Below, one piece after another: positions 11,241 through 44,957 of a stretch of 64,000 nucleotides of DNA. Position 1 is the stretch's first letter; each line of letters starts with the position of its first letter. The stretch comes from Paramacrobiotus metropolitanus (lineage: Eukaryota; Tardigrada; Eutardigrada; Parachela; Macrobiotidae), in NCBI RefSeq assembly GCF_019649055.1, contig NW_026570323.1:1-64000 (forward strand), given 5' to 3'. Both the position numbers and the translations under genes were made by a program. The notes beneath the pieces were generated by a model. That model ran no database searches. It was not told the DNA's origin and worked only from the letters and a program-made list of their open reading frames with translations.

Positions 11241-11992
11241 TTAGTAAATGTATCGTGCGCACTGTTGTCGGTATGAATAGCATTGGCATAACATAATTTT
11301 TAGCAAGTTTAACATAATACCTTGTTTTGCGGACGCCTCTTTGGTAAACACGTGCATTTCATTCAGAGAAGAACTGGATGGTCGCTCTGGTCGGGGAAGC
11401 AAGCACCGCCGAACAAAATCCAAAGCGTCTTTTTCATTAATACAACTTATATCTGGGTTGGCACCAACGTTTCTCAGTCCACGTAAGTTGGCTAGAAAGT
11501 CATCAAACTTGTTTTCCGGCGCAAATACAAATAAGCTTTCTTTTTGCCGTTCCTTCTCCGTGTAAATCCAGTTTGGTGGACTGCGCTGGTACATTTCGAG
11601 CACCGTGCAACCTAAGCTGAAGACGTCTGTTAGCGTCCCAATGACATCTATTGAATCGTCCCAATCAAAGCTTGCAAGCTTTTGCATTTCTGTTGAAGCA
11701 AATCGGGAAGAGCCTTCCGCAATATTAAGAATTTTGTTGTCTTTTGAATTCAGATCATGGAACGCAGCCTTTTCAAAATGAGCGAGCTTCAGAAAATATT
11801 CCTTTTTTTTAAGGGGGCACTCTTGCTGGCGAACTAAGACATTGTCGCAACGAATGTCCTTATGAATAATGCGATTGTTATGCAAAAATGTTAATCCAAG
11901 TAGCATTTGCTTCGTGAAAGATCGGAACAGAGAAGTATCGATTTTCTGGCATCCGGTCAACGCAATCAAAGTTGAGAGCGGCTGCAAGCAAT
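11241..11992 (-). CDS. Protein-kinase-like C-lobe, predicted pseudokinase 1 (partial)
   Basis: This is a single exon encoding the back half of a protein kinase fold. It opens after an AG at 11993-11994 in phase 1. Recognisable blocks in order: an alpha-E helix (LGLTFLHNN), catalytic loop IIHKDIRCDNVLV (HRD with Arg changed to Lys, metal-binding Asn present), a KLAHFEKA block where DFG should be, a STEM block at the APE position, and TDVFSLGCTVLEM (the DxWSxG helix). The DFG aspartate is His and the glycine is Glu, so Mg-ATP handling should be impaired. A C-tail of about 60 residues follows the domain. I could not find the N-lobe exons in the 1.6 kb upstream, so this may be a truncated duplicate of the neighbouring kinase gene. 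The incoming intron has the same position and phase as in that gene. Confidence 0.65.
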
Positions 11993-13576
11993 CTTTAAGA
12001 AAAAACAGACTTAATGATCACTTTAAAATTCAAAGGTTATTTTTATCTACCGAAGCGAAGCGTGGGTCCTCTATGTTTGAGAAACTAAGATTTTTGCCTG
12101 TCCATTGGTCACGCACTCAGCAGTACTAGCTAACTGTTAAGCCATAGTATCTAGTTTCTATTAAAGCGAAATCCGGGAGCCAAGGTTTCTGGGGTTCAGA
12201 AATTTTTTTCTGTCTGACCCTCAGGTCACGCACAATCTGCTGCTCTGTCGCGACATAAGCACCACTAATCACTAAGCTTTCTCAACTACTAGGCACTAAG
12301 CTTAAGGACTTTGCACAATTTTGGGTTCTAAGTTAAGGTACTGCAAATAATACTAAATATATTCCATAGTAGAAAACAGCTTTTTTCTGTGCATTGGTCG
12401 CGTACTAGGTAGGTACATACTGCATTACAGCTAAAACTTTATGCCTGCTTGTGCGCACTTTTTTTGCCTCTTTACCTTCCTACAAAATATGTCTTCAACA
12501 AGTACATATTCTTTATTGGAGATACAATGCTAAACGAAGTGAACTGCAACTATTTTACACGAAATTTAAAATAGCACGTGCAAGATCGAGAACCTTCTAA
12601 ACAATCCGAACCCTTATGCGCTATACATGCACTCACGCAGTATTACAGTGAACAAAATGACAAACTGATAATGCCAGTATTAAGTGATATTTTAGCCAAG
12701 CAACAAACTGTAAAAAACTTTCGATAGCGATAACGAAATTTTTGTGTGCTTTATTAAAAGCAATAGGTTACGTGAGTTTAGAATAAGACCTTTTTATTAT
12801 AAAAAGGTCTATAGATAATGCAAATATGTAGCGCTTGTGTGACCGACCAGCTTTATCTGTTTTAAATACCACGTTGGCAAGTTTTAATATCTACAGATAG
12901 GAAACAACCGCCGCAGGGCCACGTAAGCATCTTGAGCTACCTATTCGCTACCGCACGTAGTTCGCTCTGAAAGTCCTTTCCACATGCTTTCGAGTTTCGA
13001 GTTATTTCGTGATATCTTGGCTATAGTTTTGTTGTACAGTACATTGCTGCCAAACATTTTATTTTGTGGCAGAAACACTGTTACGACAAACGGTTTTTTC
13101 CGGTCAGTTTTTTAAGAACGGGTTCTTCAGTAGTGACCCTGAGGCGGTCAGAACTAGTCTAAAAGTTGCCCCCAAAAGATTCCAAGTTCCACCCGATCGA
13201 CAGGGCGTAATAAGGTAATGCAAGGCATATATTTTCTAAGATTTGCAACCCCACTGAAAATTAGATTTCATCCCATGAAAATTTAGGCTCGTAATCTGTA
13301 TGTAAGAATGGCCGAGCTCAAAAAATCTATGTTTTAGAGAACGACCTTTCAAAGTGTTAATCTATGCATTTCAATTGTGTATTCACGTTTGGCTTTAACC
13401 GTTCTAGTTCCGAAGAGGTGATTTGTAGGCAAAACGAGTTCTAAATTCTTAAAGAACTGCAATAGATATGATTTGTTTAGTCAAACCTTTCATTGGACTG
13501 TAAAATTTGTGTTCTCTTGGGAGTTTCAGCCGGAGATATGTACATCAGTTTCTGGCTTCGCTTCGGTATTTTAGTG
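11993..13576. other. Gap between the two kinase-like genes
   Basis: AT-rich; no N-lobe for pseudokinase 1 was identified on the minus strand. Two short blocks with related wording (GTCACGCACTCAGCAG near 12108 and GTCACGCACAATCTGCTG near 12226) are weak local repeats. Confidence 0.4.
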
Positions 13577-16500
13577 CTAGCCAGAAGCGGCGCACTTCTC
13601 TCGAAAATTTAGGTAAAATCGATGAATACCTTCGCTTTCCGTGAATATCCAAAATTTCTGTACTGTCCGAGCTATTGCAAGGTGTTTGATAATTTCCGAC
13701 TTTTCGCCTGAGTGTTTGATTAATTTGTCAAAGACATCTCTTTTGTTTTGGAATAACGGTCCGTCCCAGCTGTCGTTGTCACGTAATAAAATAACTGAAA
13801 CACCAGAAAGGGCGTTGCCGCCTCGGAATCCACCGGGAATCACAATTTTTTCTTTCACGGCGTTATCCTCGTGACCCAACGAACTTTTAATCAGATCAGG
13901 TAGATTTAGCTTATCTTTATCGTCTGTTGCTGTTATGCTATCCGGTCGCAGTATAAATCGTGCGATTAGAAAACGCTGTATTTCGATCCTGAACGACTGA
14001 TCGAAAAATGGAAATGGTTTAAACTCCGAGAAACTCAGAGTTTTATCGGGTTCAGAGTATGTCGCACCCAGTTCAGCTTCATCGTGCGATAAAAACTGAT
14101 GCGTTGCCTCAGCTTTTGTGGAACGCTCCACTCCCTGGCTGGTGCTTTCAACATCGTCCTCTAGCCTCAACATTTTTACGGCCAATTGAACATTTTCGGT
14201 AACCGGAAGCTCATGCTCTACGAGTTGTGTAATCGTGTCACCAGGGTTTTTGATAGTGTCTGCTGAATTCGTAAATTTCTTGGGTAATTCGCAGTCCGCA
14301 AACGGGTCACAATGGTGTGAAGCAAGAATATTAGCTTGGGGATCACCGGCATTTTCAGGCTCATTGTTCAGTCCCTTTTTAGCTCGGCTGAATGTCTCGA
14401 GCAACTCTAAGAGCTTGGCTGCAGATGGCCGTAAATCAGGAAGCGGAATCAGGCAGTTCTCAAGCAAAATGAGAATTCCTTCTGTTAGCAGCAGACAACG
14501 AGCAGGACTCTGATTCCCACACACCCGGTGGTCACATTTGTGCGCGCTTGGATACACCGGCTTGTATCCCATTTCGAAATACTTGTTCATATCTTTCAAA
14601 GTTACTTCAGAAGGCAATAAAGGTAAAGGGACGTCCCGAATGCCTCTCGTAAATGATGGAGGTCGACCTTTTTGAATCATTTGGATGATCACGCATCCGA
14701 AGCTCCATATATCGGTAGTCCGACCAACATGCTGCTTCTTTTGCTGAGGTAACGATGTGAGAGCCGCCATTTCCGGAGATACGAAAGGCACCGTGCCTGT
14801 CGCTATTCCTAGCGTTCTGGAAGGTGTTTTATCCCCGTGAAAATGTTTAATCATGGTTAGACCTGCAATTTTTACCAGTCGTTTATCTTTTAAGACAATA
14901 ACATTAGCTCCTCGGATGTCTCGGTGAATTATGCAGTTCCTGTGCAAAAATTCCAAGCCTTTCAGGATTTGCTCAATGTATCCGAAAACGGTTCCCGAAT
15001 TTTCATTCTTGCCTTGTAGCGCATACATATAACAGTCCAAAGGAAGGCCTAAAAATCACTGGGTTTTCACTTTTAATTTTGGTAGATTTGTTTTCAAAAA
15101 ATTGCGTGCAAGGGCGTTTTCCTTGTTTCCCTAGTCCCAAAGCGTATCATCATGTTTAAGTAACTTATTGTTTCCGGTATTACAGTACTGTATAAAGCGC
15201 TGCTGCGCGTCATTAAACAACTCTCAGTCTCTGAGAATAAGAAGGTGCAGACACAAAAACTGACATGAATCTGCATCGCTTTATTCCATTTACTACGAAC
15301 CTTGGTTTCGGATATCGCGTTTGTTTGTTTTGCTTTGTTTATTTTGCACGTCGTCAAACTACGATAATATTCATGTTTTCATGGTACCACTTTCCATGTT
15401 AGCGTCATTTTGTGGTGTTTTTTCTTGATGTTGTTCTGCTGTCTGAAGCCTAGAGGGGGCAACCGCTCCGTTGCAAGCACAATAAACTTCATTGTTATTA
15501 TTATCCTATTGTTAACGTTATTGTTAACGTTATTATTGTTATTATTATCCTGTTGTTAACGTCGCATTTTCGCTCTCGAATACTTACTGTAATTTTCTCG
15601 GCAACTTTCGCTCTTCTGCTGATGCATGCTTGATGAGTGAAATGCCATTTCACTGAACAGGAAAATCACCCACCCCTGACTTGAATACGGTTTCCCCTTA
15701 GGGGTCCAAGTAAAATTTGATAAAAAGCAGAAGTAGGGATTACCTATACATTAAGAATTTAAGTAGCTACACATACGTTGTCTATGTGTACGAGTACACG
15801 TATACTTGGGAAAGTACCAGTAAAAATTGATTAACAGTATCAAACAACATTGTTTTCTACGTCAGAAAGTTACGTATGCGGTATATTTCTGTATACGTAT
15901 GGGTATTGCAACATAAACGCAAGCAAAATACAGTGAAACCTCTCCTAAAATTCACTCTTTATAAAATACCCTTCTTTATAACATTCAGACCGTAAGGAAC
16001 CGGATCGGCTCGTAGACTTTAACATAGGGTGGATTCTCTTTATAGCATTCACCTCTTTATAAGCCTTACATTCACCTCTTTATAAGCCTCTTTATAAGCC
16101 TTATGCGGCAACATCCGTGCGAGCTGGAGCAGCGGCAGCAAAAGCTGAACAGGATAAGGTAACCAAGTACCAGAACATCACCCATGACTACTTGTTCAGC
16201 GCTTTGGGCTTCGAGACGCTAGGACCCAACGGACCGGAAGCTACGCGCCTGCTCACGGAAGTGGGTAGGAGGATTCGGCAAGAAAGCGGCGAGGCACGAG
16301 CATTGGAGTATCTACGCCAACGGATCAGCATAGAAATCCAGCGCGGGAACGCAGCCTCCGTTCAGGGAACGGCTCCACCGGGAGCGAATTTAGATCAGTT
16401 GTTCTCTGTTCTTAGATCTCCCGAGGTTGTTTTGTGCTGATTGAGTGAACTTCGATGTGATTTTATTTGTTTTTCTGTAAGCGGAATGGGTATAATAAAA

Positions 16501-19987: not shown

Positions 19988-22900
19988 ATGGATTCAAGTA
20001 CCACTTTGCTAAATGCATCTTACGCCTCTGACGCCGCAACATTCAACAGCGGACAAGCTGGATATGTCTTCTCGCGCACAACGGCCACAAGCGGAGAATT
20101 GTTTGCTCCACCGAAGTAAGGCCCTACTGTACTGTGGCCGGCACTGGCCAAATGCTACTTATATTTCTGTGACTTTTTCTGCAAAGTTTTTGTGAGCATC
20201 GTATAGTAAAGTTACAGGATGCATAAGCAGTTTGTGTCCGTTGACTGAAGCAGAAGTAGTACGTACTACGTAGCACTGCACTGATGAAATCCAGTCGTGC
20301 AACCGATCAGTAGTTTGTTTTATCAGTAGTGTTTTAACTAAATTTTTGCATGACGGAACCGCACAAGCACTTGCAAAAGGTTACAAATTTAATAATGTTT
20401 GGGTCATTACAATGTATATTTTTCGAATGCTTTGTACACAAAATTCGTATAATAATTTCAAATATTTCACGTTGCGGACTTGCTGTTGCTCCAGGGAAAT
20501 TAAAATCAGCAGCGGTTAAGTACCTTAATATGTAGGTCCAATGAGTACCAATCGATTTGCCTTATTCGCGTTTATATAATACGAGTTTATAATAATATTT
20601 ACAGCATCACTTCGCTGGCTCACTTACCGTGGGTTTTTCATTACCTGGGCCCGATCATTGTAGCAAGCTTGGTGCTGGCTGTATTGATTATCGATTTTCT
20701 CATCCATCATTGTTGTGATATATGGAAAGAACTAGTTACTTTTGTGAAGGAGTGGCCATTCTTATTCATTCGTGGGACATGTGTCTTCTTTTTAAACGCG
20801 TGTTCACTGCGTTTGAACTTCTTTATTCCTTACTGGAGTGATGACAGGTAATTGGCTAACCACCAGTTATAGAAGCACGGCCATTTTCTCGTCTGACGTA
20901 TTCTGACGTAAGCAAAAACCTGATATAATAAACCTTGATTTCCACTTCACTGTTCTTTAGAAAGAAACTGTTCTTTAGAAAGCTGAATGGCGGATGGTAC
21001 AGCAAGCTCGACTCCGAATATTGGCGAATGACTTTCTGGGATCTGCTTATAAATGCTTCCTTACTGTTTCTGCTGTTTTTAAAACCCTTACAGGTTATAT
21101 GTTTAAAATACGTGATTTTCAGTCCCTGTTACTGTATTTTTATATAACAGATGGAAACAAATGCAGGCGGTGCATCACCTCGTGAGATGTTTCATCGGAT
21201 GTGTGAAAGCTACATCAGATTTTTTAAAATAAAGGACTTCAAGATGCTGTCCAGGAAGAAAAAATGGTCCTCCATTAAAGCTAGAGCGTCCAGATTGCTG
21301 CGCGACTGGGAAGTTATTGTCAACGCAGCGAATTTTCTCCTGATTACATATGAGATTGATTACGTGTTTGGCCTGAATAGCATTACGAATTTAACGCACT
21401 GGAGATTTACCTTGCCCAGTGAGTGTTTTATTTCCAGAATAAATCATATCCTGCTTAGAATCAGCAGCATAATTTATTTTTGCGTATCTAGGCCTACAGT
21501 TCCTACGCTTACTCTGCATCGTGTGGGCGGGCGACGAGTTACTGGGCGTATTTCGCAACATTCCGATTTCGATTGCTGTAATTTTTCGACGAACGACACG
21601 GATCGTCTGCTGCTTTTTCTGTTTTGCTGCTTGGATACAGCTGGTGAGTTTCTAGTGCCTAAAATTATGCGACGAACGTTTTCGAAAACCAGAACTACGC
21701 ACCGTCTGTCGACATGAGCCACCTGGCCCATTTGACGGCAACAAAACAAATAGCCATTACATCAAATGGGGTAGGAGACTGACACAGACTGAGCTTCTGA
21801 CCACTAATTATATGCTTTAGCGCATTATAATCGATTTGAAGTGCAATTCACGTGACACCCCATTCCCAGGTAGTCGCGGAAGATTCCGTTGCACACGTTT
21901 CGTCATCCTTATTTCGTAACAGCTCGTTGCGTAACCCTTTCGTTGGGTACTAAAACGATGCTCTTAAAGCATCTCAAATCGAATTGCTTACTCAGCGCTT
22001 TGAGGGAGCTTACTGACTGTACAGGTTGGAAGAGGATACGAGGTCACGACTCACGAAGCGCTATGATTACGATTACCAGAAAGGAGAAACACGAGTTCAC
22101 TATGCGGCCAGATCGCAGGCCTTTATTTATTATCCCGTACGAACGGAAAAGGACACAAAACTAAAATCAAGTTTAGAATTATAAAATGGGCAGCTTCCGA
22201 TAAATGTGTCTAGTCATGCTATCCGCATGGTGAGCTGGTCAGAACAGGTAGCCACACATGGTGAGACCGCTTAGACAACATTCATTCGCTTTAGTACCGT
22301 TTTATCGCAAGACATTTGGGAGTAGGACAGTTATCGAAAGGCAACGAACAATCAGGATATTCGCCACAAAATTGAAATATGACTAAACGTCCGCTGACTC
22401 TCTCCGACGAAAACGTCCCAAAGTATAGAAGTGTACCGTTAAGAAATACAGAGACCAGGCATTGATTAAGTGGCACCATGGTAATTCACATTATTATGAA
22501 ACCCATAAAAGAGAGAAAACGATTTTATTGGAGTAGTTTACCTATCTTATCACCTTCGCCCGCCTGCAGTGAGACGTCGCGGCAGGAGTTATGGTTAAAT
22601 CTGGTTCATGAACGCCTTGTTCAACCACAGGTGACGACAGAAAAACAATTTGAGTGGAATAGTTTCCCCTTATCACCGTGGGTTCAGGATGAATCCAGGA
22701 CAGTAGCCCAGACTGACAGGACTCTGTGTAGTGTAGGACGTAACGTTTATGGGAGAAAAGCACAACGCTCGACATCCAGTTATCGTAATACACTTTTATT
22801 AGCGTTCTCGCTCACGGCTAAATCAACACTGTCTAGACCTCGCTTTTAGCGCCAAGTTCAATCCGCTCTCAGCGGTGTTACACAAAGAACGGCAGTAGCC

Positions 22901-25900
22901 GTCAGCCAATCAGAAAAGAGACACGTCACAGACGGCAATTCCCCACGGTGTAGTGCAACGAAGCATTCGCGTAGCGTCACGAAAGTGAAGGCAGGGCAGC
23001 CATCGCCTCACACCCTGATATGCTGTACGGAACAATGGTACAACGACCAGCCACACAAATGCACGGAAACTTTCGAAACAACTAGCCGCATAAAGCAATC
23101 GCAAAGTACCGGCTGTGTTTTGCAAATGAATGGCTGTCGCATTCAGCCAGTTCTCGATCGGATTTACTGAATTGGAAATCTCTTGCAGCAGCGAGATCGG
23201 CGTACGCTGTCATGCAGCTGAGCGTTTATAATATCTCGTATCCCCTAGCACAAGCGTTGCACATAATTTAATTGTCAAATCCAGAAAGGGAAGAAACTCC
23301 TTAAACCGCTTACGTAATATCGGGTTGGAGGATTGTGTTGCGGGAATGTATCTGGCGGAATCCGGCGCAATACATACGCACCCTGTTCAGCCATAACGTC
23401 CAACTCCAGCCGGATGATGGCAGCAGATATACAATGGACGACAAAACTTACTTAACCTAGGAACCGGATTTGCGGTTTTAGACAAAGAACAGAGAGATCA
23501 TGGCTGCCGCGTTTCTGCTCAGTGACCTGATATAGCGGCGGATATGCGGCGCTCACTCATCGTATGCGCTGTAAGCCGACAGCGGTTAACGGTCCGGAGT
23601 TAAGTAAATTTTGTCACCCATTGTGGTGGTCGGTCCAAGGCGTTTTATTTGCTTTCTTTTTCCTGTATTCACCAGTTACCCTTGCCTCCCACCCGACTAT
23701 TAAAATGCACGTTCGATCAGTTTGTCACCCCTGCCATATCTGGATCGGGGCTGATGCAATACGCTAATACGCTGTATTATTGTTCCCAGGTTCTGTTACT
23801 GTAGACACAAACAATGCAATACACAAAGGGGGTGCTTTGTTATTTACTGACAAACACACCCGCGTACAAGCGGGAACAACGTCTAAAAAAAATCATTTCA
23901 AATCCCGATCGTTGCCGGACGCAGTGCCAAGTGTGAGCGCATACACTGCGAACGGCTGCTATATATACTCATACCATATACTGCACGCTGACCATCAGAA
24001 TACTAACAGACTGAACAGACCACTGCGTTCCGCCCACCGTCACCAGGTCCAATAATTAATACAGATTACTGCGATAATCTTTCCCATAAACCCGACCCTT
24101 GCACTAAATTCGACACGTACGAAACAATGACGCATAGCCATTTGCCACACTGTCGTGTTAGCACACATAAAGTTCCCACGCGACCGGTATAAGATCGTAT
24201 TCGAGGCTTACTGCACATTTTTATTCGCCCGATGTATTGTCAGAATTTGTATGTTCAGGACAACAACTACGGTTTGACTACGAGTAGTTAAAATAATAGG
24301 CAATTAGGCACAGGAAACGCAGTGGTTAGTGCACACATGAAATAACTTGTCTCGTGTGATCAGATATTCAGGGCTACCCATATCTGTAAGACGCACTGTT
24401 AAAAACTCGCTTGAAACCCAATAACTCAATCATGTGTACAGTGTACTTGTTTTCTTACCTTCAGATGGAAATACTGGGAGACCCATACACGGAATACAAT
24501 GGTCAAAAGGATTTAACATATGGCAAAGTTGTGGCATTTCTCTATGGAAAACTGGTGTACCTGGACGTGATATCGATTCAGTTGCACACAACCTTAGCTA
24601 GAATATCCGTTTATGTTGTGCAAGCCATTAACTTGGTAAATTCATTAAAAATTAACAAAAATGGTGGCACGACATTTGTTACTGCGATAATCATTAAGCT
24701 GTGGCACGAGTGCTTGGCCTTTTTCGGTTGTGCAACACAAAGGCCTTATGGATGATTTTTTAATTGTTTTGCAGCTATTCATTGCGCAACTTATACCGGA
24801 CATGTTGAAGCAGCTACCAAACATTTTACGGCTTCGCTCGTTTGGCAAAGTTTACAGGAAAGGGGATAAAGCGTACGTAAGACCACCGAAGTAGAACTTC
24901 CATAATTTATGGTGTTATGGTCTATATTGGTTAGGTTTGTGCTGCTACTCGGATCAGTGGGACCGAATGCTGTTGAGCAATTTGCCGAAGACTTCTACAT
25001 TAGCAATCGAGAAGAAAATATCTTGGTACTCCTAGAGTGAGTGCTGGCATAAGGAAACAATGTCACAAGGGCAAAACTTGCCGTAGTTGTTAGATGACGA
25101 AACAAATTGTCTTATTAGATCAGCTGCCTCATCATGTGCCACAGAAGAGATGCACAGTGTTGCCCGGAAGCACAAGCGAAATTTGACCGTTGTCACTGGG
25201 TCGGTATTTAACCAGGCTGACATTGACAAAAACATCTCCGACATGTGTCGCTGTGCTTTTGTCCTTGCTAACGAAAGTGCGCCAAACCCAGAAGAAGAAG
25301 ACCACCGTAATTACCTTAGTGTGCATGTGCTGAAGCAACATCGCTCCAGACTTCGTGTCATTGTTAAAGTCCTTATGCTCCATAACAAGGTAATAGTGAG
25401 CGCTTTGCGCTTTCAGTATCGGTTAACGCTATTTACTGGTACTCGATCAATTATTACGTAGTTTTAATGAGTAACCACATGGAATACAGGTTTCGAACCA
25501 AAATCCACACAAAGCAAATCTACAAAGTGATTAATATTAATAAACAGTGGCTGAATGAAATCGAATTTACCGTAAAGTAAGCGTAATTGAGTTCTTGATA
25601 GGGGGACGGGGACGGATAGGAGCTGCAGCATACAGAGCGGGTGTACTGATCTCTACCGATATACTCTCTCTATGTTGAAACATCGAGCGAAATCAGAGCG
25701 CTCCCGACCACCTAGTAGGAAACCAGTTACGCTTGCTTTACGGCAAATTCAATTTTCTTCCGCCACTGTATAATATTAATCACTTTGAAATCTACCAATC
25801 TGGAAAACCTGACACAAGAGAGTAGCAGAAGCCTGAAAGAGAAAGCCCCCACATGTCACAATGTCACACAAATCAATTATGCTCCTCAAACAATCAATCA

Positions 25901-28900
25901 TGCTCATTAAACATGCTCTTCAAACGTGTGATCAATCATGCTCTTTAGTCTTTAAACAAGTTTCTGAAGCGCAACTGATATATTGATACAGGTATCGGTC
26001 GTGCTAGCGCGCGACCAGCTGTGTTCTAGGTATGGAAGAAAGAAAGAAATTACAAAATGTACATACTTCGAACAGCGATTTTGAGAAATATTTCAAATGT
26101 AAAGCCTCAGCGAGGCCAGCTACGAAGATATTTTAAACATTTAGAATGCAGACAGCTTTCAAGCTTACCGGTTAAATTCGAACATCTTTATAGAAATTTA
26201 TTGTAAAAACTATAAAAATTTGTAAAATATATTCTTTATTGTAAAATTTATTCTTTATTGAAAAAACCTCGTAATTTTTCTTTTTGTTTGTATTTTTCAC
26301 GTTTTTTATGTAACTTTTTTTTGCCGATCTAGCCCACTCAAAACTTCAATTTTTTGGTACGACAGATGGAAATGGAAACTTAAAAAATTAATGGAAACTT
26401 GTGGGAAACAATTAACAGTTGCTCAAGTGTCAAGGTGCCCTCTCGGGATCCATCTTCAGCTAATAATTGTAAGACTTTCAGCTCTTCAGTATTTAATAAA
26501 ATAAAATACGTGCGTATTTATTAGACATAACGGTTAGTGAATGCCCAAGCTACCAGCAGTATTAAAGAGAAACGTAGGTCAATGAATACTTCTACCCGAG
26601 CTACCACCAGTATTACAGAGCAACTTAAGTTAGTGAATGCCCAAGCTACCAACAGTATTACAGAGCAACGTAGGTTAATGAGCACTTAAGCTACCACCAG
26701 TAATATAGAGGAACGTAGGTTAGTGAATGCCCCAGCGACCAGTAATATGCAGCAACATAGGTCAGTGAATGCCAAGGCCCAAAGCTACCACCAGTATTAC
26801 AGAGCAACGTAGGTTAGTGAATACCCAAGCTACCACCAGTATCACAGAGCCGCTACGTGAGTGGATACGGTAAACGAGCCGCGGGCCGGCTTTTAGATTA
26901 GAAATCTAGATATAGAACAGATGCTTTAGATCGTGAGATATTGAGGTATTAGATTTCTAGATATTTTTATAATTTCGAAACTCTGGAGGCTCAAAAAATT
27001 AGGGGTAACGGCCCCGCTGGGCCAAGCCGAAATATTTAGAAATATTTTAAAATTTTGGAAATGTAAAAGCTTATGAGCCGACTCTGGAAAATTTTATAGT
27101 TGAGGTATTCGAACAGATTTAAAGAACATCTTAAAGTTTCAAGAATTTAAACAAATAAAATTACGTTTGATGCAATAAATGTAATAAATTATAAGTAATA
27201 AATAATAAGTTTTGATGTAATAAACTATAATTAGTTGTACCTTGTTTTTGTTGTTGTTGTTACGGATTTTACAGCGTAGTCGTATTTAAGTTATACCTGG
27301 AAACGGAAACGGAAACTTAAAAAATGGATGGAAATGGAAACTTAAAAAATTAATGGAAACTTGTGGGAAACAATTAACAGTTGCTCAAGTGTCAAGGTGC
27401 CCTTGACACCGAATGTGAAACTGCGTTACACATGCAGCAGCAATTCTCCTACATTTAAAAATATGGGTTTCAAAGCATATTCATCAGCAACCATGTATCT
27501 AGAACTTTCTAGAAGCTAACATTTAAGTACAGTACTATGACGTACTTACTACTAAATTTAGGTACTACAACTTCCAAAAATTCATGATACGCCGGCGATT
27601 AAGTGATAAGTACTACATTCAACTGCTACAACCTAAGTAAAGGTACTACTACACTGCTACATTCAAGTACAGCTGCCTTAAAAAGTTCAAGTACCAACAA
27701 CCTCCAAGTACTACAACTTAAAAACTTTTTTAAGACCTTCTCCAAAACTTAAGATTTTTTTAAAGATAAAGGTGGGAACGTTTGTGCGATGCTCTATTTT
27801 ATAGAATCAACAATTTTTTTCAAAATATAAATGTTGATTTAGGAGATAATTTCCAAAATTAACAGCCCTTAAGTACTAACAACCTTTAAGTACTACAACT
27901 TTTAAAAATTTTTTTAGACCTTCTCCAAATCTTAAGATTTTTTCAAATATAAAGGTAGGAACGTTTGTGCGATGCTCTATTTTATAAAATTATCAACTTA
28001 TTGAAAAAGTCAATCTTGATTTAGGAGATAATTTTCCAAAAATATGTTATTTAAAATGCTAAAGGTTATCGAAGCAGTTAATAAATGACGCCAGTCATGA
28101 CTGCAAATCCCTTCTGACATCGGTGTTATTGAATTTCGTTGTGTATCACAGGATCTGTTTTATGATATTCCCAACTGGAGTGATGAACGTAACCTCTGCT
28201 CTGGGAGACCGCCTGACAGGGTCGTTTGCGTTCCTGAGATTCATTTTGCACTGCTGGCACAAAGACATTTTGTACCTGCATTATCCAGTATTATTCATGA
28301 CTGGCTTAATCCATCTGGGGATGAAACAATCCGGTCGTATGTCATACCACAGGATTATGGAGAACCAGCAACTCGAATTTCAATACGTGATATATCTACC
28401 GAACAAACGTTAGCAGGAGTAAGAAGTTTTTCTCCAGATACCGCCAACGCCCCTACGCTGGACGATGGTAACGCCAAACCATTACGCAACCTCACGCCAA
28501 ACAAACTTTCATCAAACGCAAGCGTCGAAACGAATTCCGGTGAAAGCAGTTCACCAGCCTTCAAAACTCAGGATAAAATTGCCACTGATATCGTTGACCG
28601 CAACCATGATAATCCTTCAGAAGATCCTTCAGAAACCGAACGTCTCCTAAAAAAAAGCGAAGCGGACGGTAACAAACTTCCAGCTGAAAGCCGCGAAGAT
28701 TTCACTCCCTCCCAGTCGGGAGAAAAAAGCACAGACCCTTGCGATACGACCAATGGTACCAAGAGTACTTCAACAGTTGAAGAGAATTCAAAAGTTTCTC
28801 GGCTTTCACCGGTTTCCGACTCGGGTGGAAATAACAGCAGGCTTCAAACCGAACCTCAAATCCCGCCCGCCGCTACTGCCATTTTAACAGAGCACCAAGC

Positions 28901-31900
28901 TAACGTCCAAAAAAATCACTCCGGCGTAGAATTCAAAGATGTAAAGGTGAGAATGATGCAGATAGTGCTGAGTATCGCACTGCTTTGATTTTGACCAGCG
29001 TTAAATCTTCAGAAAGCCTATGAAAAGCTAAAGGATGGGAGTCCGTTTGCGGTGCTGCAGGAAGGAGAGTACCATTTGTTCCCACGAGACAATCTGATTC
29101 TCGGACCTGGAACGCTGTTGTTCTATGTAAAGCATAGCCGTGATACGGGAACAAACAACCGAGCTGATGTTGCATACAATGAAGCAGCTAAAACTGCAGC
29201 TTACCGATATTTTGAACAGCCCCGCCAGCAAAAACAAGACTGAAATACAAATACGGTGAGTTGTAATTTGAGTGTTTTGCGCTATGGTCTGCGCAAAATA
29301 AATACCCCTGCAGACCTTCAATCTACGCTGATAGCCGCGTAAATTACTTACGTGACGTCTGATGATCTCAGTGTTTAGGGCGGACTAGTTCTTGAATACG
29401 GGCTTGTGTTCCAAACTCTAGTCCCAGGTTTCAATGCATGCACATCTACGTAAATTATGCTGTATTCCTGCATCTCTTTTATTTTAGGGATGTCAGCAAG
29501 GTCGATGTGTACGATAAAACGGGACAATATCAACTCAACCCTGAAGATCAGCTCTATTACATCGTAAACGATTTCGCTGAAATATGGCCTGATTATATTT
29601 TTTCTTTCTCTGTCATTCACATTTTTGTTGTCTAAAACATAATTATTTATTTTACTAACAGGATCCAGACAAATCCGACCAGGAAGACAGAGGATTGAGC
29701 TTGTGTCGCGACCATATCGTTGTTTGCATTGTATCGGACGGATCTCCTGCTTTCATTGGGCTGATGGGCTTCCTCAAACCATTGCGGGCTGCCCAAATCG
29801 CCCGCACAACGGTTGTCATTTTGGCAAATAAGAAATTTCTCGACTTAGAAGCACCCACTATTAACAAGTTTTCTGACGTGCTTTTTGTCCAGGTACGACC
29901 GTAAGAACACTAAAAAGTTCAACTTTTGTTAAAGCTAGCGGTATCTACCGGTGAATCACCGCGTCATCAATTAGCAGTAAACAGTTTTGGAAATTTGTAA
30001 CTGTGATTCAGTTCTTCTGTTTCTGAATTAGTGTTAAAAACAAGCAAAAACGTTGAATAGCCAGCACAATAACATTATTTTATTATTCGCAGTAACTGCT
30101 TGTGGATTCAGTACTCGTATGCTCAAAACGTGGCCCAAAGCAGCCCAAAATAGTACATTTAACAGCGGGATGCGGATAATGCCATAATGGTTCATCCTTG
30201 CTTGTGATAACTGCTCACAGTGCTCATTGATTTTGTAATTCTTAGAAAATTTTTCCCTCTTATCACCGAAGGTTAATGAGCCGAAAGCTAACTTTTAGTT
30301 TGGAGCATTTTCAGTCTTTTTGAATCCAACTTATTATAATAATCTGGGAAATTGCAGGGTACTCCATTCAATGACGACCACCTACTTGCTGTAAATGTTC
30401 AACTGTCCCGATTGTGCGTAATAATTGATGCGAGTGAAACCACTAAGAAACTTGGGGATGACACCCACCCAGCCGCCGATACACAGTTTCCCGCCTTATC
30501 AAAATATTTCAACCGACACGGGACGGCCGTTCGAGCAACTTCTGCTGTAGCCGAGTTCATTAGAAAACATCATGACAGAACTACAACCTTGCCAGAAAAC
30601 ATTACGGCTGCTGTAGCGGACATTGCGAGCAGAATCATTTCTCCAAGCCAGGAAGCCTCCATAAAAGAGTCTGTGGAAGCCTCTATAAAAGAGTATTTAC
30701 TGGAAGTCCGGAGTTATGACAGCGAGTATAAAAAAACTGCAACGGAAAAAATAATGAAGCTCTTGAGACAGCGTGACAGAAAGCACGAACGGCTTATAAG
30801 GTTCATTAAAACGCTGTACGAAAGTTCCCAGCAGTGGGATATCGGCGTTATTGAAAAATTTGTGGACATATCCATTGATAAACGCAGAGACGCATCGTCT
30901 GCTGAAACCGCTAATAAAGTAAAAGAAGTTCTTGTTAATTTCCGCAACGAATGTGAACACTTACTTGAAGCTAGGACGCCCCAGTTGTTGAAATCTTGTG
31001 GAAGCGAAATATTGGAAGATATAAAAGGACTCATGCGAAATTTTCGACAGTATGTTTTTCCATCCGGAGAAATCTTCACATGCATGCGTAAGACGACGAG
31101 CGATACTTGTAATCATCAGTGCTTAGAAACTGCAAAATAAGTGCAACATAATTAATTAATTCTATTACTATCAACTGTGAATTTGAAAACGAGCTGCAAA
31201 TCTCTTTCCATGAATCACCATCTAAATTTACACTGAAAACTCGAACGCTCTCTTTGACTAACGATGATGTCGTGTAATTTATGCGCATTGTGTAATATGT
31301 CGTTTATACGTAGATCACGAAGCACTGGACTGCATATCATGGAATCAGAATATCATTGGAAGTTCAAAGGTGACAGTGGACAGCAGTAATCACAGCTTTA
31401 TCAACGCAATGATGATTAAATGTTACCGGGATGTTGAAGTATTTGACGTTATCCGGTTGCTGCTGATTAATGGATATAAAAATGCTTTCCACGAAAACTT
31501 GAGCCGCAAAATTTCGGGATGCCCGTTTGTTGGGAACCAGGCTATCTTAACCCAGCTGTATGCTGTCAGCAAAGATGGTACAATAACTGGGTTTCGAAAG
31601 CGCCACAATGCAGACATAACGGCCGAACGACAAGGAATCGACGTGCAAATCCTTGCAAGACAGCCTGCGTCTACAAGCAGTGCAGCAGCAGCTGTCAGCG
31701 GTGCTGTACGTAGCAGTCCAACAGAAAATTTTCCGCGTGAAGGTCGTGACGTTACAGTTCATGGAGGGGACAAACGACCAGAAGAAATAGACCTGCCGAT
31801 TGCGGACGTTAATTGTTCATTTGGTACATTTTCGGAAGAGGCCATGAAAACGGGATATCTCGTTCTGGGAACGGAATTTCCGGTGGATAAAAACATATTA

Positions 31901-32327
31901 ATGCGGGATATGCCAGACGGCTGTTCTTTAGTGGTCCTCGAAAGACCGTGGTACGTGGCAGCCCGTCAGAGACTTATCAAGGCAGTGATGGACTGGTGGG
32001 CTAACAATGGCAAACCAGAACCAAAAAGGTAATTATTACAGAAAATGTATGTCCGACTTTCCTTTCCACAACATCTATTGTTTAAGGTGGCAGAGATTTA
32101 TGGAGATTTTACCGTCCTATGTTCTAAGTCGCACCGAAAGGGAAAGCGGAGTGAACATCGGAAATCCATATATGGATCATAGCCCAACCAAGTGGCTTAA
32201 AGCGTACTACGGCATTACGAAGGACGTATTCAACCTGGTTAGTGCTGGCGAAAATTACTCTTCGAAAACCTGTCTCAGTCTGAGCGCTTCATTGCTTGGC
32301 TCCGAGCGCTGGGGCTTAAATTTTTAA
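19988..32327 (+). CDS. Slo1/BK-like channel-derived protein with non-conserved pore
   Basis: Exons: 19988-20115, 20605-20847, 20961-21093, 21151-21418, 21492-21643, 24465-24635, 24775-24872, 24935-25036, 25119-25389, 28152-28946, 29013-29255, 29488-29563, 29662-29892, 30358-31087, 31314-32028, 32087-32327; about 1,530 residues (Slo1 is usually 1,100-1,200). Nearly every join agrees in phase. Exon 1 gives an N-terminus with an NAS sequon; exon 2 holds an S0-like helix. Exon 5 is S4-S5 (SLQFLRLLC...), exon 6 the GDPYTEY turret, pore helix and S6, exons 7-10 the RCK1 domain (TVVTGSVFNQADI, FVLANE, VVCVPEIHF), exons 13-15 RCK2 (HIVVCIVSDG, GTPFNDDHLLAVNV). Alignment to Slo1 is ungapped from S4 to the end of S6. 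The K+ filter TVGYGD is replaced by YLDVIS, and no acidic calcium bowl is seen. Exon 11 shows a frame problem (in-frame TGA at 29241). Function is unknown; a conventional K+ conductance is unlikely. Confidence 0.85.
22680..22745. repeat. Dispersed repeat shared with the 35.5-kb tRNA-derived repeat
   Basis: About 55 bp containing CCAGACTGACAGGACTCTGT and GTAGTGTAGGACGTAAC recurs in inverse orientation at 35524-35580. It lies in the 2.8-kb Slo-like intron and has no tRNA-like head here. It is probably a SINE/LINE tail. Confidence 0.65.
26366..27403. repeat. About 76-bp direct repeat flanking a 0.9-kb block in a Slo-like intron
   Basis: The segment GATGGAAATGGAAACTTAAA ... GCTCAAGTGTCAAGGTGCCC occurs at about 26366-26441 and again at about 27328-27403, nearly identical. 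The intervening block contains the 45-50-bp minisatellite. It may be a segmental duplication or an element bounded by direct repeats. Confidence 0.7.
26532..26855. repeat. Degenerate 45-50-bp minisatellite
   Basis: About seven imperfect units carry the words GTTAGTGAATGCCCAAGCTA, CCACCAGTATTACAGAG and CAACGTAGG. Units differ in length and by substitutions, so the array is old. Intronic in the Slo-like gene. Confidence 0.75.
27709..28040. repeat. Tandem duplication of about 182 bp
   Basis: Two copies of a block containing GACCTTCTCCAAA, AACGTTTGTGCGATGCTCTA and GATTTAGGAGATAATTT, starting near 27709 and 27891 with several substitutions. It lies just upstream of the 28152 Slo-like exon. Confidence 0.7.
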
Positions 32328-34333: not shown

Positions 34334-34861
34334 CTATCTAGTATGAAGAAATGTTAGGCGCCAGAGCCTAATTGTAGCATCCGGATTCGATAGGCACCTC
34401 GCCGGGCACTCTTCCTTGCCGTTGATCGCCTTGATGCTCGCTCCGAATTTCCCCTCTCCCACCCAGGGATAGTTGTGCACGGCGGCGCCCCAGTAGCAGT
34501 AGGCGGTGGCCCAGGCGATGTCCTCGTCGTCAGCCACCTGGTCTGGGTTCTCCACCAAGCGGTCATCGTGATACAGCGCCTGCGAGGCCTTGCGGTAGTT
34601 GTCCTCCCACGTCAGCTGCATGTAGCCGCGTCCGTAGTACTTCTCGTACTCCGGTTGGGGCGAGATCTGCTTCTTGTAGCGCAGTCCGCCGGATTCGTGG
34701 AGAATGTTGGCCAGGAACATGGCCAGCTCGCGGCGGCTGGTGATTTTGCCGTTGGGAGCGCCTTTGGCGAAACTCTCGTACTGGGCGTCCGTCGGCTGCG
34801 GGAAACCGTTGCTGGTTACGGCCTGCCGGAACTCGTCTTTGCTGACCAGGTATCCAGACAT
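34334..34861 (-). pseudogene. GH19 chitinase copy B, C-terminally deleted and catalytically altered
   Basis: Intronless frame starting MSGYLVSKDEF, with no signal peptide or knottin module. The HESGGL catalytic Glu is present, but the Glu conserved at the next position in A, C, D and E (KE or RE) is Gln here (YKKQISP). YEKYYGRGYMQLTW follows, with Gly to Glu before KYYGRG. After AINGKEE about 70 nt are missing; in the paralogues these encode the CHGQN...YYKR(V/I)LAVF segment. The remaining VPGEVPIESGCYN end persists out of frame at 34368-34409. The junction carries GTGCC, which occurs at both borders in copy C, so the deletion looks microhomology-mediated. The frame then runs into 20-25 unrelated residues. 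I regard it as a decaying duplicate. Confidence 0.85.
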
Positions 34862-35286
34862 GGTGATTTATAGCAACACTTTTTAACTGTGTAAAGCTAT
34901 GGTTAGTCGAAAGGTTTGATACAACCTACTGGTAAATAATGGAAATTTAACCGCAGCTTATATACACAACAGATAACTGGGTAGCGACCAAAGAAGGAAC
35001 AACATTCTTGTACGTTCAGCATTTGTCATGTGCTTATCAGCTATGAGTCCGTATGACTGTGTTATCGCATAATTGATCACTGAGTGTACGGTGCATTCTG
35101 ATTACCGAGCCCTTCTGTTGACCAACTTTTGTTTGCGTTCCTAGTCTAATCAGATATTATTATTTCCGGTCTGGGGGAGCGAAAATGTACATGCGTAACT
35201 ACCACCGGTCGCGAATTCGTAATTCTTAATTGCCCGGGCTTATCTGCGTTAAATAACAAGGTGTAAGGAGGAGTGGCCTCCCCGCA

Positions 35287-36529: not shown

Positions 36530-37093
36530 CTAAATGTAACATCCCGATTCGATGGGCACCTCTCCGGGCACGAAGACGGCCAGGACGCGTTTGTAGTACT
36601 GGAAGCGGGCGGTGGCCTGGTCGCGGTTCTGTCCGTGGCACTCGCGGGCCCCGTTAATCGCCTGGATGGTCTCCCCGAACTTCCCTTCCGCCACCCGGGG
36701 GCGGGAGTGCACGTTGGTGGCCCAGAACCAGAAGGCGGTGGCCCAGGCGACGTCCTCGTTGTCGGCGACCATATCGGGATTTCTCAGCAAACGATCGTCG
36801 TGGTACAGTGCTTGGGACGCGGCGCGGTAGTTGGCTTCCCAGGTCAGCTGGATGTATCCGCGTCCGTAATACTTCCCGTACGCCGGGAGGGGATGCTGCT
36901 CCCTCTTCTTCCGCAGTCCGCCAGATTCGTGGATAATGTTGGCCAGGAACATGGACAGTTCGCGGCGTGTGCTGATGTTGCCTCGGGGAGCGCCGCTGAC
37001 GAAGCTCTTGTACTGGGCATTCGTCGGTGCCGGGAAGCCGTTGCTGGTGACCGCCTTCCGGAACTCCTCGTCACTAACCAGATCTTCTGGCAT
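36530..37093 (-). CDS. GH19 chitinase copy C, single exon, no signal peptide
   Basis: A 187-residue protein consisting only of the GH19 catalytic domain. It starts MPEDLVSDEEF, continues SNGFPAPTNAQYKSF, catalytic HESGGLRKKREQHP (both conserved acidic positions present), YGKYYGRGYIQLTWEANY, DVAWATAFWFW, AINGARECHGQN, and ends VPGEVPIESGCYI. The N-terminal residues align with the start of exon 3 in copies D and E, so this copy appears to have gained its own start codon and lost the signal-peptide and knottin exons. Without a secretion signal it would be cytosolic or use an upstream exon not recognised here. The two cysteines absent from copy A are present. The frame is intact. Confidence 0.8.
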   Translation of the reverse strand: MPEDLVSDEEFRKAVTSNGFPAPTNAQYKSFVSGAPRGNISTRRELSMFLANIIHESGGLRKKREQHPLPAYGKYYGRGYIQLTWEANYRAASQALYHDDRLLRNPDMVADNEDVAWATAFWFWATNVHSRPRVAEGKFGETIQAINGARECHGQNRDQATARFQYYKRVLAVFVPGEVPIESGCYI

Positions 37094-37540
37094 GGTTGTT
37101 TGCTTAACCGCTTTGACAGTGTGTTCTGCTTAATCTGAAAAGTGACAATCGATCGCGTAGTAACCAGCTTATACGACAAATACACTAGACGTACTGCGAG
37201 AAATTAAGAATTATTAGAACATAAACATCACTGTTTTGCGTCTGGAAATTTTTGATCGAAAACTATGAAAATTGTCCTCTTCAGTCTTCAGGTAGTTTGA
37301 GTAGAACGAGGTCAAACGGTCGCTCTGCATAAAGCGAAGTGATACGGATACAGGATCTCGCACAAGGTGCAAATGACTGCAACAGGCTACTGCAGTTGCA
37401 GTACATCATGTTCGAGGTTAAAATTTAATCAGGCTTTAGTTAATCGGTGTCATATGTCAGACGATATTAAAACTATAGTTTTCACACCAAAGGTCATTCT
37501 GTAGGACCGTAAGCGTACTACGGTTGGTGAGATCTTATGA

Positions 37541-40447: not shown

Positions 40448-41642
40448 CTAATTATAGCATCCGGTCTCGATGGGCGTCTCTCCGGGCACAAAGATGGCCA
40501 GGATGCGTTTGTAGTACTGATAGCGGGCTTTGGACTGGTCCAGGTTTTCTCCGTTACACTCGTGCCAACCGTTGATGGCCTTGATGCTCGCGCCGAAATG
40601 CCCCTGTTGCACTCCGTCCTTAGCGTGCACATTGTCGCCCCAGAACCAGAAGCTGGTGTCCCAGGCGACCTGGTCGTCCTTCAGGATGAGGTCGGGATTC
40701 GTCAACAGACGGTCGTCATGGTACAATGCTGCGGACGCAGCCTTGTAGTTGTAATCCCAGGACAACTGGATGTAGCCGCGGCCGTAATACTTCCCGTACT
40801 CTGGCAGCGGGTGTTCCTCCTTGATCTTCTTGAGTCCGCCGGATTCGTGGATGATGTTGGCCAAGAACATGGCCAACTCGCGTTTGGTGGTGATGTGGCC
40901 GTTGGGAGCGCCTTTGACGAAATGATCGTACTGGGCGTCAGTCGGCTGCGGGAAACCGTTGCTGGTCACGGCTTTAAAGAATTGGTCCTTGGTGACAAGG
41001 TTTTTCGACGAGGAACCTGGAGAACCAGTTCGTCTCAAATCTGGTTAGGTTAAAGGTCAAGGAACGGCCTTACCTTGACTGTTAGTGGCTGGCGCCTTCG
41101 GGGTGGTCGGTTTCTGTGCCGGGCGAGTGGCGGCGGTGGTCTGCTTTCCAGCGGTGGGACTGGGCGCGGCTCCGCCGGCTTTCTTGCAGAATCCGAAGGT
41201 TTCGGCGCCGTTGTTGCATTTGAGACCGCTGCAGCACGGAAGGTGGCCGGCACAGCCGGCGTCCTCCGTCTGACAGGCTTCGATCACTGCGCTCTGCAAT
41301 CAAGGAAGTCAGCTGATCATAAATGGCATTTACATTAAAATTAATAGTATTTATATAGTGTTAAACAATATTTGAAATAATAACAGTATTTAAAGAGTAT
41401 AAATCAGTATTTACATAAATGAAATAGTGTTAACAATATTTGAAATGATAACAGTATTTAAATAGCATTAACCAGTATTTAGATTAAATAGTATTTTAGC
41501 AGTAATAAATAGTATTTAAGTTAAGCACCATTTGAGTACTTTAAATAAATAGTATTAAAAAGGGAATTTTTAAGGTGCCTTTTACAGCTGCAAAGCTTAC
41601 CGAACAGGCGATAGCGAGCAGAATTACGGATAATCCTCGCAT
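40448..41642 (-). CDS. Secreted knottin-GH19 chitinase D
   Basis: Three exons: 41642-41601 (signal peptide MRGLSVILLAIACS), 41293-41074 (knottin module and Pro/Thr/Ala linker), 41016-40448 (GH19 domain); phases 0 and 1 agree, giving 276 residues. The knottin-like exon has six cysteines in the order C-x6-C-x5-CC-x4-C-x9-C (CQTEDAGC, CCSGLKC, GFC). The catalytic exon has HESGGL and KEEHP glutamates, YGKYYGRGYIQLSW, HECNG and the GCYN end, and no damage is visible. It should be a secreted chitin hydrolase; the small module may aid chitin binding or act independently. It shares exon structure and upstream sequence with copy E (tandem duplicate) and shares its promoter type with F and G. Intron 1 contains AGTATTTAA-type AT repeats. 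Confidence 0.9.
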
Positions 41643-43944: not shown

Positions 43945-44957
43945 CTAATTGTAGCATCCGGTTTCGATGGGCGTCTCCCCGGGCACAAAGATGGCCAGGA
44001 TGCGTTTGTAGTACTTGAAGCGGGATTGGGACTGGTCCAGGTTTGCTCCATTGCACTCATGAGCACCGTTGATGGCCTTGATGGTGGCGCCGAAATGCCC
44101 TTCTTGGACTCCGTCATGAGAGTGCACATTGGCACCCCAGAACCAGTAGGTGGTGTCCCAGGCGACCTGGTCGTCCTTCAGGATGAGGTCGGGATTCGTC
44201 AACAGACGGTCGTCGTGGTACAGTGCTTCCGACGCGGAACGGTAGTTGGCCTCCCAGGTCAGCTGGATGTAGCCGCGTCCGTAGTACTTCCCGTACTCCG
44301 CCAGCGGTTGTTCCTCCTTCATCTTCTGCAGTCCGCCGGACTCGTGGAGGATGTTAGCCAGGAACATGGCCAACTCGCGTTTGGTAGTGATGTGCCCGTT
44401 GGGCGCGCCTTTGACGAAATGATCGTACTGGGCGTCCGTCGGCTGCGGGAAACCGTTGCTGGTTACGGCTTTGAAGAATTGGTCCTTGCTGACCAGGTTT
44501 TTTGAGGAGGAACCTGGAGAACCAAGGTTCAGTTTAGAAAATCGGTAATTTATCGAGTTCTTGCTATAAATTAGTCTCCCTTAAATGTGGTTGTGTTAAA
44601 GGTCAAGGAACGGCCCTACCTTGGTTGGTTTTAGCCGGCGCCCGCGGGGTGGTTGGTTTCTGTGCCGGCCGAGGAGCGGTCTCTTCACCACTATTGGGAC
44701 TGGCGTCGGCTCCGTCTGCTTTCTTGCAGAATCCGAATACTTCGGCGCCGTTGTTGCATTTCAGACCGCTGCAGCAGGGAGGAAGATGGCCGGCACAGCC
44801 TTCGTTTTCCGTCTGACAAGCCTCGATTACTACGCTCTGCAAGCGAGAAAGTCAGTTGAGAACTTGATGTTAACTGTATTTAAAAAAAGGTGACTTTAAC
44901 AGATGGAAGCCTTACCGAACAAGCGACAGCGAGCAGGATTACGGTTAATCCTCGCAT
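43945..44957 (-). CDS. Secreted knottin-GH19 chitinase E
   Basis: Three exons: 44957-44916 (MRGLTVILLAVACS), 44836-44620 (knottin module, one codon shorter than D), 44513-43945 (GH19); phases 0 and 1, 275 residues. Knottin cysteines: CQTENEGC, CCSGLKC, GFC. Catalytic blocks: HESGGLQKMKEEQP, YGKYYGRGYIQLTW, AHECNG, GCYN end. It is highly similar to D throughout, including intron positions, and no defect is visible. D and E are head-to-tail tandem duplicates about 2.3 kb apart. The ATG is fixed by the signal peptide and by identity with D. Confidence 0.9.

Follow-up and report, generated by a model that had tools for sequence, protein, structure and literature searches.

The K+ selectivity filter TVGYGD/TVGFGD is absent from a Slo/BK-family protein of the tardigrade Paramacrobiotus metropolitanus, in which the sequence YLDVIS takes its place. 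The gene lies in a 64-kb stretch of DNA (positions 1-64000 of contig C103; hereafter the window) and, going beyond the initial annotation of that stretch, we found that it belongs to a clade of paralogs with a conserved pore signature of its own. The GYG filter is among the most conserved of ion-channel motifs. In these proteins another, strongly conserved sequence stands where K+ would be selected, so that a role other than K+ passage is probable. By analogy with other channel systems they may constitute a family of filter-replaced, non-K+-conducting Slo subunits that modify other Slo channels, a proposal to which we give about an even chance. A single animal genome contains BK-type genes with the filter kept (13), altered (2) or replaced by a conserved shared sequence (13), a series that can be tested side by side and that bears on the use of a BK scaffold without K+ selectivity, the rebuilding of P-loops and a possible later uncoupling of Ca2+ sensing from the pore.

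A Slo gene with a replaced selectivity filter

The gene (19988-32032, forward strand) was modelled by hand as 16 exons with 15 introns, all of the GT-AG type, and reads as a single open frame of 1428 amino acids and a stop (Table 1), which bears out the intactness of exons, splice sites and phases described earlier; the stretch 24465-24872 singled out at that time runs exactly from exon 6 through exon 7. A frameshift suspected by eye near 29127-29255 proved to be a 73-bp intron with good splice sites, and for exon 3 a second in-frame acceptor is possible 18 bp further downstream. Hydropathy analysis of the protein yields peaks for S0, S1, S2, S5, the P segment and S6, with S3 and S4 falling below the cut-off used.

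Table 1. Exons and pore motifs of the window Slo gene
Feature	Position	Strand	Content	Basis
Exon 1	19988..20115	+	start codon and extracellular N terminus	hand model, GT-AG, open frame
Exon 2	20605..20847	+	S0 (aa 58-76, 20648-20704) and S1	hand model; hydropathy peak 2.65
Exon 3	20961..21093	+	S2	hand model and hydropathy
Exon 4	21151..21418	+	S2-S3 region	hand model; S3 below the hydropathy cut-off used
Exon 5	21492..21643	+	S4 (R207->Q, R210 kept, R213->C) and S5	hand model, alignment
Exon 6	24465..24635	+	turret GDPYTEY, P segment, first part of S6	model, phmmer, MAFFT
Replacement P-segment signature YGKLVYLD (aa 335-342)	24543..24566	+		Y, G, K/R and D in 13/13 filterless paralogs
YLDVIS, aligned with K+ filter TVGYGD	24558..24575	+		phmmer, MAFFT, family profile
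S6 signature Y358..Q361	24612..24623	+		in 13/13 filterless paralogs
Exon 7	24775..24872	+	S6 end (LIPDM, P320 equivalent kept) and linker	
Exon 8	24935..25036	+	RCK1 start	model and phmmer
Exon 9	25119..25389	+	RCK1 (Slo-like_RCK, PF22614)	Pfam, phmmer
Exon 10	28152..28946	+	RCK1 end and long fast-evolving linker	model, constraint analysis
Exon 11	29013..29126	+		hand model
Exon 12	29200..29255	+		hand model
Exon 13	29488..29563	+		hand model
Exon 14	29662..29892	+	RCK2 (Slo-like_RCK, PF22614)	Pfam
Exon 15	30358..31087	+	remainder of RCK2, then long insert	
Exon 16	31314..32032	+	C terminus and stop; without acidic Ca2+ bowl	

Membership of the Slo/BK family, as originally proposed, is supported by both profile and pairwise searches. 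A phmmer search of PDB with residues 1-580 matched 27 different sequences with E <= 1, every one a Slo-family chain, the best being a BK chain (E 2.3e-24 over query residues 258-570). Likewise, Pfam detects the Slo-like_RCK domain (PF22614) in two stretches of the protein (E 2e-26, score 92.4 against a cut-off of 24 bits); no channel-pore family of Pfam matched it. In the insert that follows RCK2 (30358-31087, aa ~1035-1172) there is a sub-threshold match to the HEPN domain of Cas Csm6 (E 0.003, 17.8 vs 23.4 bits), probably a chance similarity of a helical stretch.

The register of the filter replacement is the same by three routes. Two of the phmmer alignments with Slo-family chains are ungapped from S5 to S6 and set V-Y-L-D-V-I-S on S-T-V-G-F-G-D; MAFFT alignment with human Slo1 places T287, V288, G289, Y290, G291 and D292 on Y, L, D, V, I and S; and a profile of the 13 relatives described below pairs with human Slo1 without gaps and in an identical register, at an E-value (0.0066) that is weak by itself. 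Given this concordance, a chance register can be ruled out, and the earlier placement of TVGYGD on YLDVIS holds. The gapless alignment claimed from S4 to S6 needs qualification: there is no net gap, but compensating pairs of one-residue gaps occur in the S4-S5 linker and the turret. Similarly, the S6 glycine pair (G310/G311 of human Slo1) is indeed replaced by I/N in the MAFFT alignment, but this is not special to the gene, as the pair is also missing from several paralogs with a canonical filter, such as L030 (S, T).

The initial annotation had named a TVGYGD exon within the 2.8-kb intron (21644-24464) as the finding that would overturn it. No TxGYGD-like string was found in any of the six frames across the 64-kb window. 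As this pattern misses filters that are split by introns (it missed that of L030), a looser core, G[YF]G[DNE], was added, and it too was found in none of the six frames across the window. The intron is thus without a TVGYGD exon.

A clade of filterless Slo paralogs

A search of the genome (169,799,020 bases in 533 contigs) gave at least 26 matches to BK_channel_a and at least 78 to Slo-like_RCK. A tardigrade CAHS1 fragment, from a protein family not known outside tardigrades, has 16 matches in it (best E 3.8e-51). We modelled 37 genomic stretches with a custom spliced protein-to-DNA aligner, which for the window gene arrived at the model already built by hand. A readable S4-S6 pore is present in 28 Slo loci, including that of the window: 13 are canonical, with the filter TVGYGD or TVGFGD, two have odd filters and 13 are filterless. 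The filterless genes comprise subclade A, with eight genes (the window gene, L001+L002, here termed L0012, L003, L004, L005, L006, L007 and L008+L009), and subclade B, with five (L016, L019, L020, L021 and L024). Their number is to be taken as at least 13, the candidate lists being lower bounds; pore searches with a subclade A and a subclade B query revealed no further filterless locus among the matches listed. No relatives were confirmed in viral contigs.

Several features of these loci deserve mention in their own right. The Slo genes are grouped on a few contigs (C107 at 81.5-131.5 kb, C11, C14 and C105), with four subclade A genes on C105 and three subclade B genes on C11. The odd filters are TIGSPD in L018 (C14, ~1.307 Mb) and TIGGSE in L026 (C3, ~0.427 Mb), both genes being Slo1-like elsewhere; they are sisters with a support of 100/100 in the tree computed without filter columns and perhaps represent a second, separate change of selectivity. 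Four partial loci (C18, C84, C107 at 92.5-106.5 kb and C323) showed no pore segment in the pieces examined and do not enter any count. Among them, the poreless copies L033+L036 (C84) and L037 (C323) are almost identical, the latter with frameshifts, and may be a recent duplicate or a pair of pseudogenes.

All 13 filterless genes, which lie on six contigs besides that of the window, share one replacement signature: YG[KR]...D in the P segment, with the consensus YG[KR]xxx[LV]D, and Y..Q in S6. Invariant across them are the turret E and GD, the P-segment Y and G, the D, and the Y and Q of S6; the residue after YG is K in nine and R in four. The invariant D aligns with the first filter glycine, G289, and the K/R lies five residues before it. 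Neither YG[KR] in the P segment nor Q at I308 occurs in any of the 15 other rows from this genome.

In a tree of 30 rows and 388 columns from which the filter columns (Slo1 278-294) had been removed, a single branch groups subclades A and B apart from all other rows (99/94), with A supported at 100/100 and B at 98/96. A tree of RCK1 only (29 rows, 169 columns) again unites A and B (95/89), with B at 80/0. Both trees are unrooted and were built without a Slo2 outgroup. With A and B on one side of a branch, a single loss of the filter suffices, and Slo1-type Ca2+ bowls in L016 (DQDDDDLPGTEFYMTQPY), L020 and L021 point to an origin from Slo1. Most simply, then, the sequences suggest that the filterless clade descended from Slo1 (BK) with the filter lost once. 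Subclade A has a long stem (2.19), and long-branch attraction could therefore have aided the union of A and B, though the shared motif lay outside the tree.

Constraint on the replaced pore

Selection was estimated by the Nei-Gojobori method in three subclade A pairs, window-L0012, L003-L004 and L006-L007, dS being high (0.8-2.5) in these usable comparisons and saturated for most other pairs. In that order, dN/dS is 0.133, 0.084 and 0.041 for S5-P-S6, 0.16, 0.12 and 0.07 for the P exon and 0.40, 0.57 and 0.54 for the linker; for the RCK domains, on which this check had been proposed, it is 0.04-0.21 in the three pairs. When 818 stretches of 15 residues were scored for conservation within subclade A, those starting at 331, 328 and 325 ranked 2 to 4 and that starting at 333 ranked 14, with the first rank in RCK1. 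Intron positions and phases at aa 258, 309, 366, 398, 432 and 523, in the pore and RCK1, are identical in all eight subclade A genes.

These results bear on whether the filterless genes are decaying duplicates, products of an assembly fault or genes whose canonical filter is hidden in an alternative exon. The genome does hold very many Slo genes, with some copies seemingly partial. Frameshifts or stops, one or two per model, also appear in seven of the 13 automatic filterless models, against four of the 13 canonical ones (including the near-canonical Slo1, L023) and neither of the two odd ones, so that decay of single copies is possible. The window gene has none; no event falls within the S4-S6 segment of any model; the stop in L004 is at a read-through adjoining an exon boundary; and the events may be artefacts of the aligner. 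Against a general explanation of this kind stand the purifying selection on the pore and the recurrence of one motif across 13 loci on the window contig and six others, which likewise uphold the earlier argument against simple decay. A hidden filter exon is ruled out by the six-frame searches in the window and, in the relatives, by the lack of any TxGYGD-like string in the other 12 filterless loci together with short introns: those preceding the P exon are only 43, 70 and 87 bp in L005, L006 and L007, leaving no space for such an exon in these three members. The filterless loci do contain six G[YF]G[NE] strings, none in a Slo context. We consequently regard decay or artefact as very improbable.

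Divergence of the voltage and Ca2+ sensors

In S4, all 13 filterless genes have lost R207 and R213 and kept R210, the window protein retaining one of the three arginines (Q, R and C at these positions). The Ca2+ sensors differ between the subclades. D367 of the RCK1 site is kept in all five subclade B genes and is N in all eight of subclade A; E535 is kept in four of five in B and none of eight in A, where this region aligned poorly; and R514 is kept in four of five in B. The Ca2+ bowl of subclade B is good in L016, recognizable in L020 and L021 and lost in L024, with L019 not covered, whereas an acidic bowl is absent from all six subclade A models that cover the region, the window included (L0012 being uncovered and L003 partly covered). 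This pattern indicates that both subclades share the filter replacement and that only A lost the Ca2+ sites. With the bowl and the RCK1 site gone, the window protein is, judging by sequence, unlikely to be a plain Slo1-type Ca2+ sensor.

Retention of both RCK domains, under the constraint reported above, and of Ca2+-site residues in subclade B (D367 in 5/5, E535 in 4/5, R514 in 4/5 and the bowl in 3/5) would fit a homomeric, non-conducting membrane protein whose RCK ring acts as sensor or scaffold without a partner Slo subunit. The known Ca2+ sites are lost in subclade A, though, and such a role does not account for a P segment as strongly conserved as the best-kept RCK stretch; we consider it rather unlikely.

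Functional possibilities for the filterless proteins

AlphaFold2 models of the P exon were obtained from two alignments. For the window exon 6 and 11 relatives (12 of the 13 filterless rows; L021 was omitted since its P region spans an intron), helix 19-56 is unbroken (mean pLDDT 70, pTM 0.34). The control, made of eight of the 13 canonical rows (those of L010, L012, L013, L014 and L030, split by introns there, were omitted), has two helices, 13-27 and 37-50, joined by a loop, reading as pore helix, loop and S6 helix (mean pLDDT 63, pTM 0.36). As the inputs were isolated short fragments with thin alignments and the confidence is low, the models offer a weak hint that the filterless P segment forms no re-entrant filter loop.

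In the scenario that we favor, a Slo1 descendant would have lost the K+ filter and acquired in its stead a conserved P segment of new sequence (YG[KR]xxx[LV]D, accompanied by Y..Q in S6), the protein presumably keeping the Slo fold with S0-S6 and two RCK domains. A homotetramer would be expected not to conduct K+ through a canonical filter. By analogy, the filterless subunit would most likely co-assemble with other Slo subunits and alter or silence them. Subclade A proteins, with their Slo1 Ca2+ sites gone, would be unresponsive to Ca2+ in the BK manner.

Alternatively, these proteins might form tetrameric channels of other selectivity, in which the D at G289 would form a four-aspartate ring, paired with Lys/Arg, that passes Na+, Ca2+ or mixed cations; one-domain Na+/Ca2+ channels are a precedent for an aspartate-ring pore. 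A working pore would fit the invariant D, the K/R five residues before it and the exceptionally strong conservation seen in the P segment, as well as the retained hydrophobic stretches of S5, P and S6 and the S6 proline; moreover, CNG channels form a cation pore despite loss of GYG. Conversely, the isolated fragment is predicted to be a single helix without a loop, and a fixed K/R beside the pore would oppose cations unless paired with the D. Furthermore, the family profile searched against PDB at E <= 10 matched 21 Slo sequences and one staphylococcal nuclease (E 1.5) and no Na+/Ca2+ channel. We hold a pore of this type to be credible but doubtful. If it existed, subclade B would be a Ca2+-gated non-K+ channel and subclade A would also lack the Ca2+ sensor.

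The choice among subunit, non-K+ pore and sensor or scaffold leans on analogy and one weak structure prediction. On that footing the modifying subunit heads our ranking, followed by the non-K+ pore and then by the stand-alone sensor or scaffold, with decay or artefact the least likely.

Comparison with known systems

The closest counterpart is Slo1/BK (KCNMA1, slowpoke), with which the window protein shares an alignable S4-S6 region, both RCK domains, the S6 proline and the turret GDP...LTY. The tardigrade Slo1, L023, and the window gene also have matching exon boundaries ahead of the turret and within S6. Unlike Slo1, the window protein has no TVGYGD, R207 or R213 and has a long linker and an insert, and its subclade has lost the RCK1 Ca2+ site and the bowl. 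Slo3 (KCNU1) has the same Slo architecture, its gating-ring chain 4hpf being matched by phmmer at E 5.3e-9. Like the window protein, Slo3 is without a Slo1-type bowl, but it keeps the K+ filter.

CNG channels offer another comparison: they are K+-channel-like, have lost the GYG filter, carry a cytosolic ligand domain and conduct cations. Their ligand domain and pore sequence differ from those of the filterless Slo proteins. Polycystin-1 has a degenerate pore and serves polycystin-2; it and other degenerate-pore subunits resemble the filterless Slo proteins in having a pore-like domain without a working filter, the partner of the latter being putative.

We found no paper on filterless Slo proteins in open-access full text and, as to the Slo expansion in tardigrades, nothing there beyond PMC5531438, which notes a duplicated Ca2+-activated K+ channel in two other tardigrades. 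In an anhydrobiotic animal such as this tardigrade, so large a set of Slo genes may be relevant to drying or osmotic stress.

Neighbouring genes

Upstream of the Slo gene are two protein-kinase-like ORFs at 13577-15055 and 11241-12017 (-), with Pkinase E-values of 2.2e-20 and 4.1e-17. Downstream, ORFs for GH19 class I chitinases are clustered at 36530-37129, 40448-41044 and 43945-44580 (-), with Pfam E-values of 7.6e-19, 1.7e-17 and 1.3e-17, respectively, and a fourth chitinase-like ORF (34334-34867, -) was assigned by likeness of its translation only. In an animal, chitinases of the GH19 family could derive from a foreign source.
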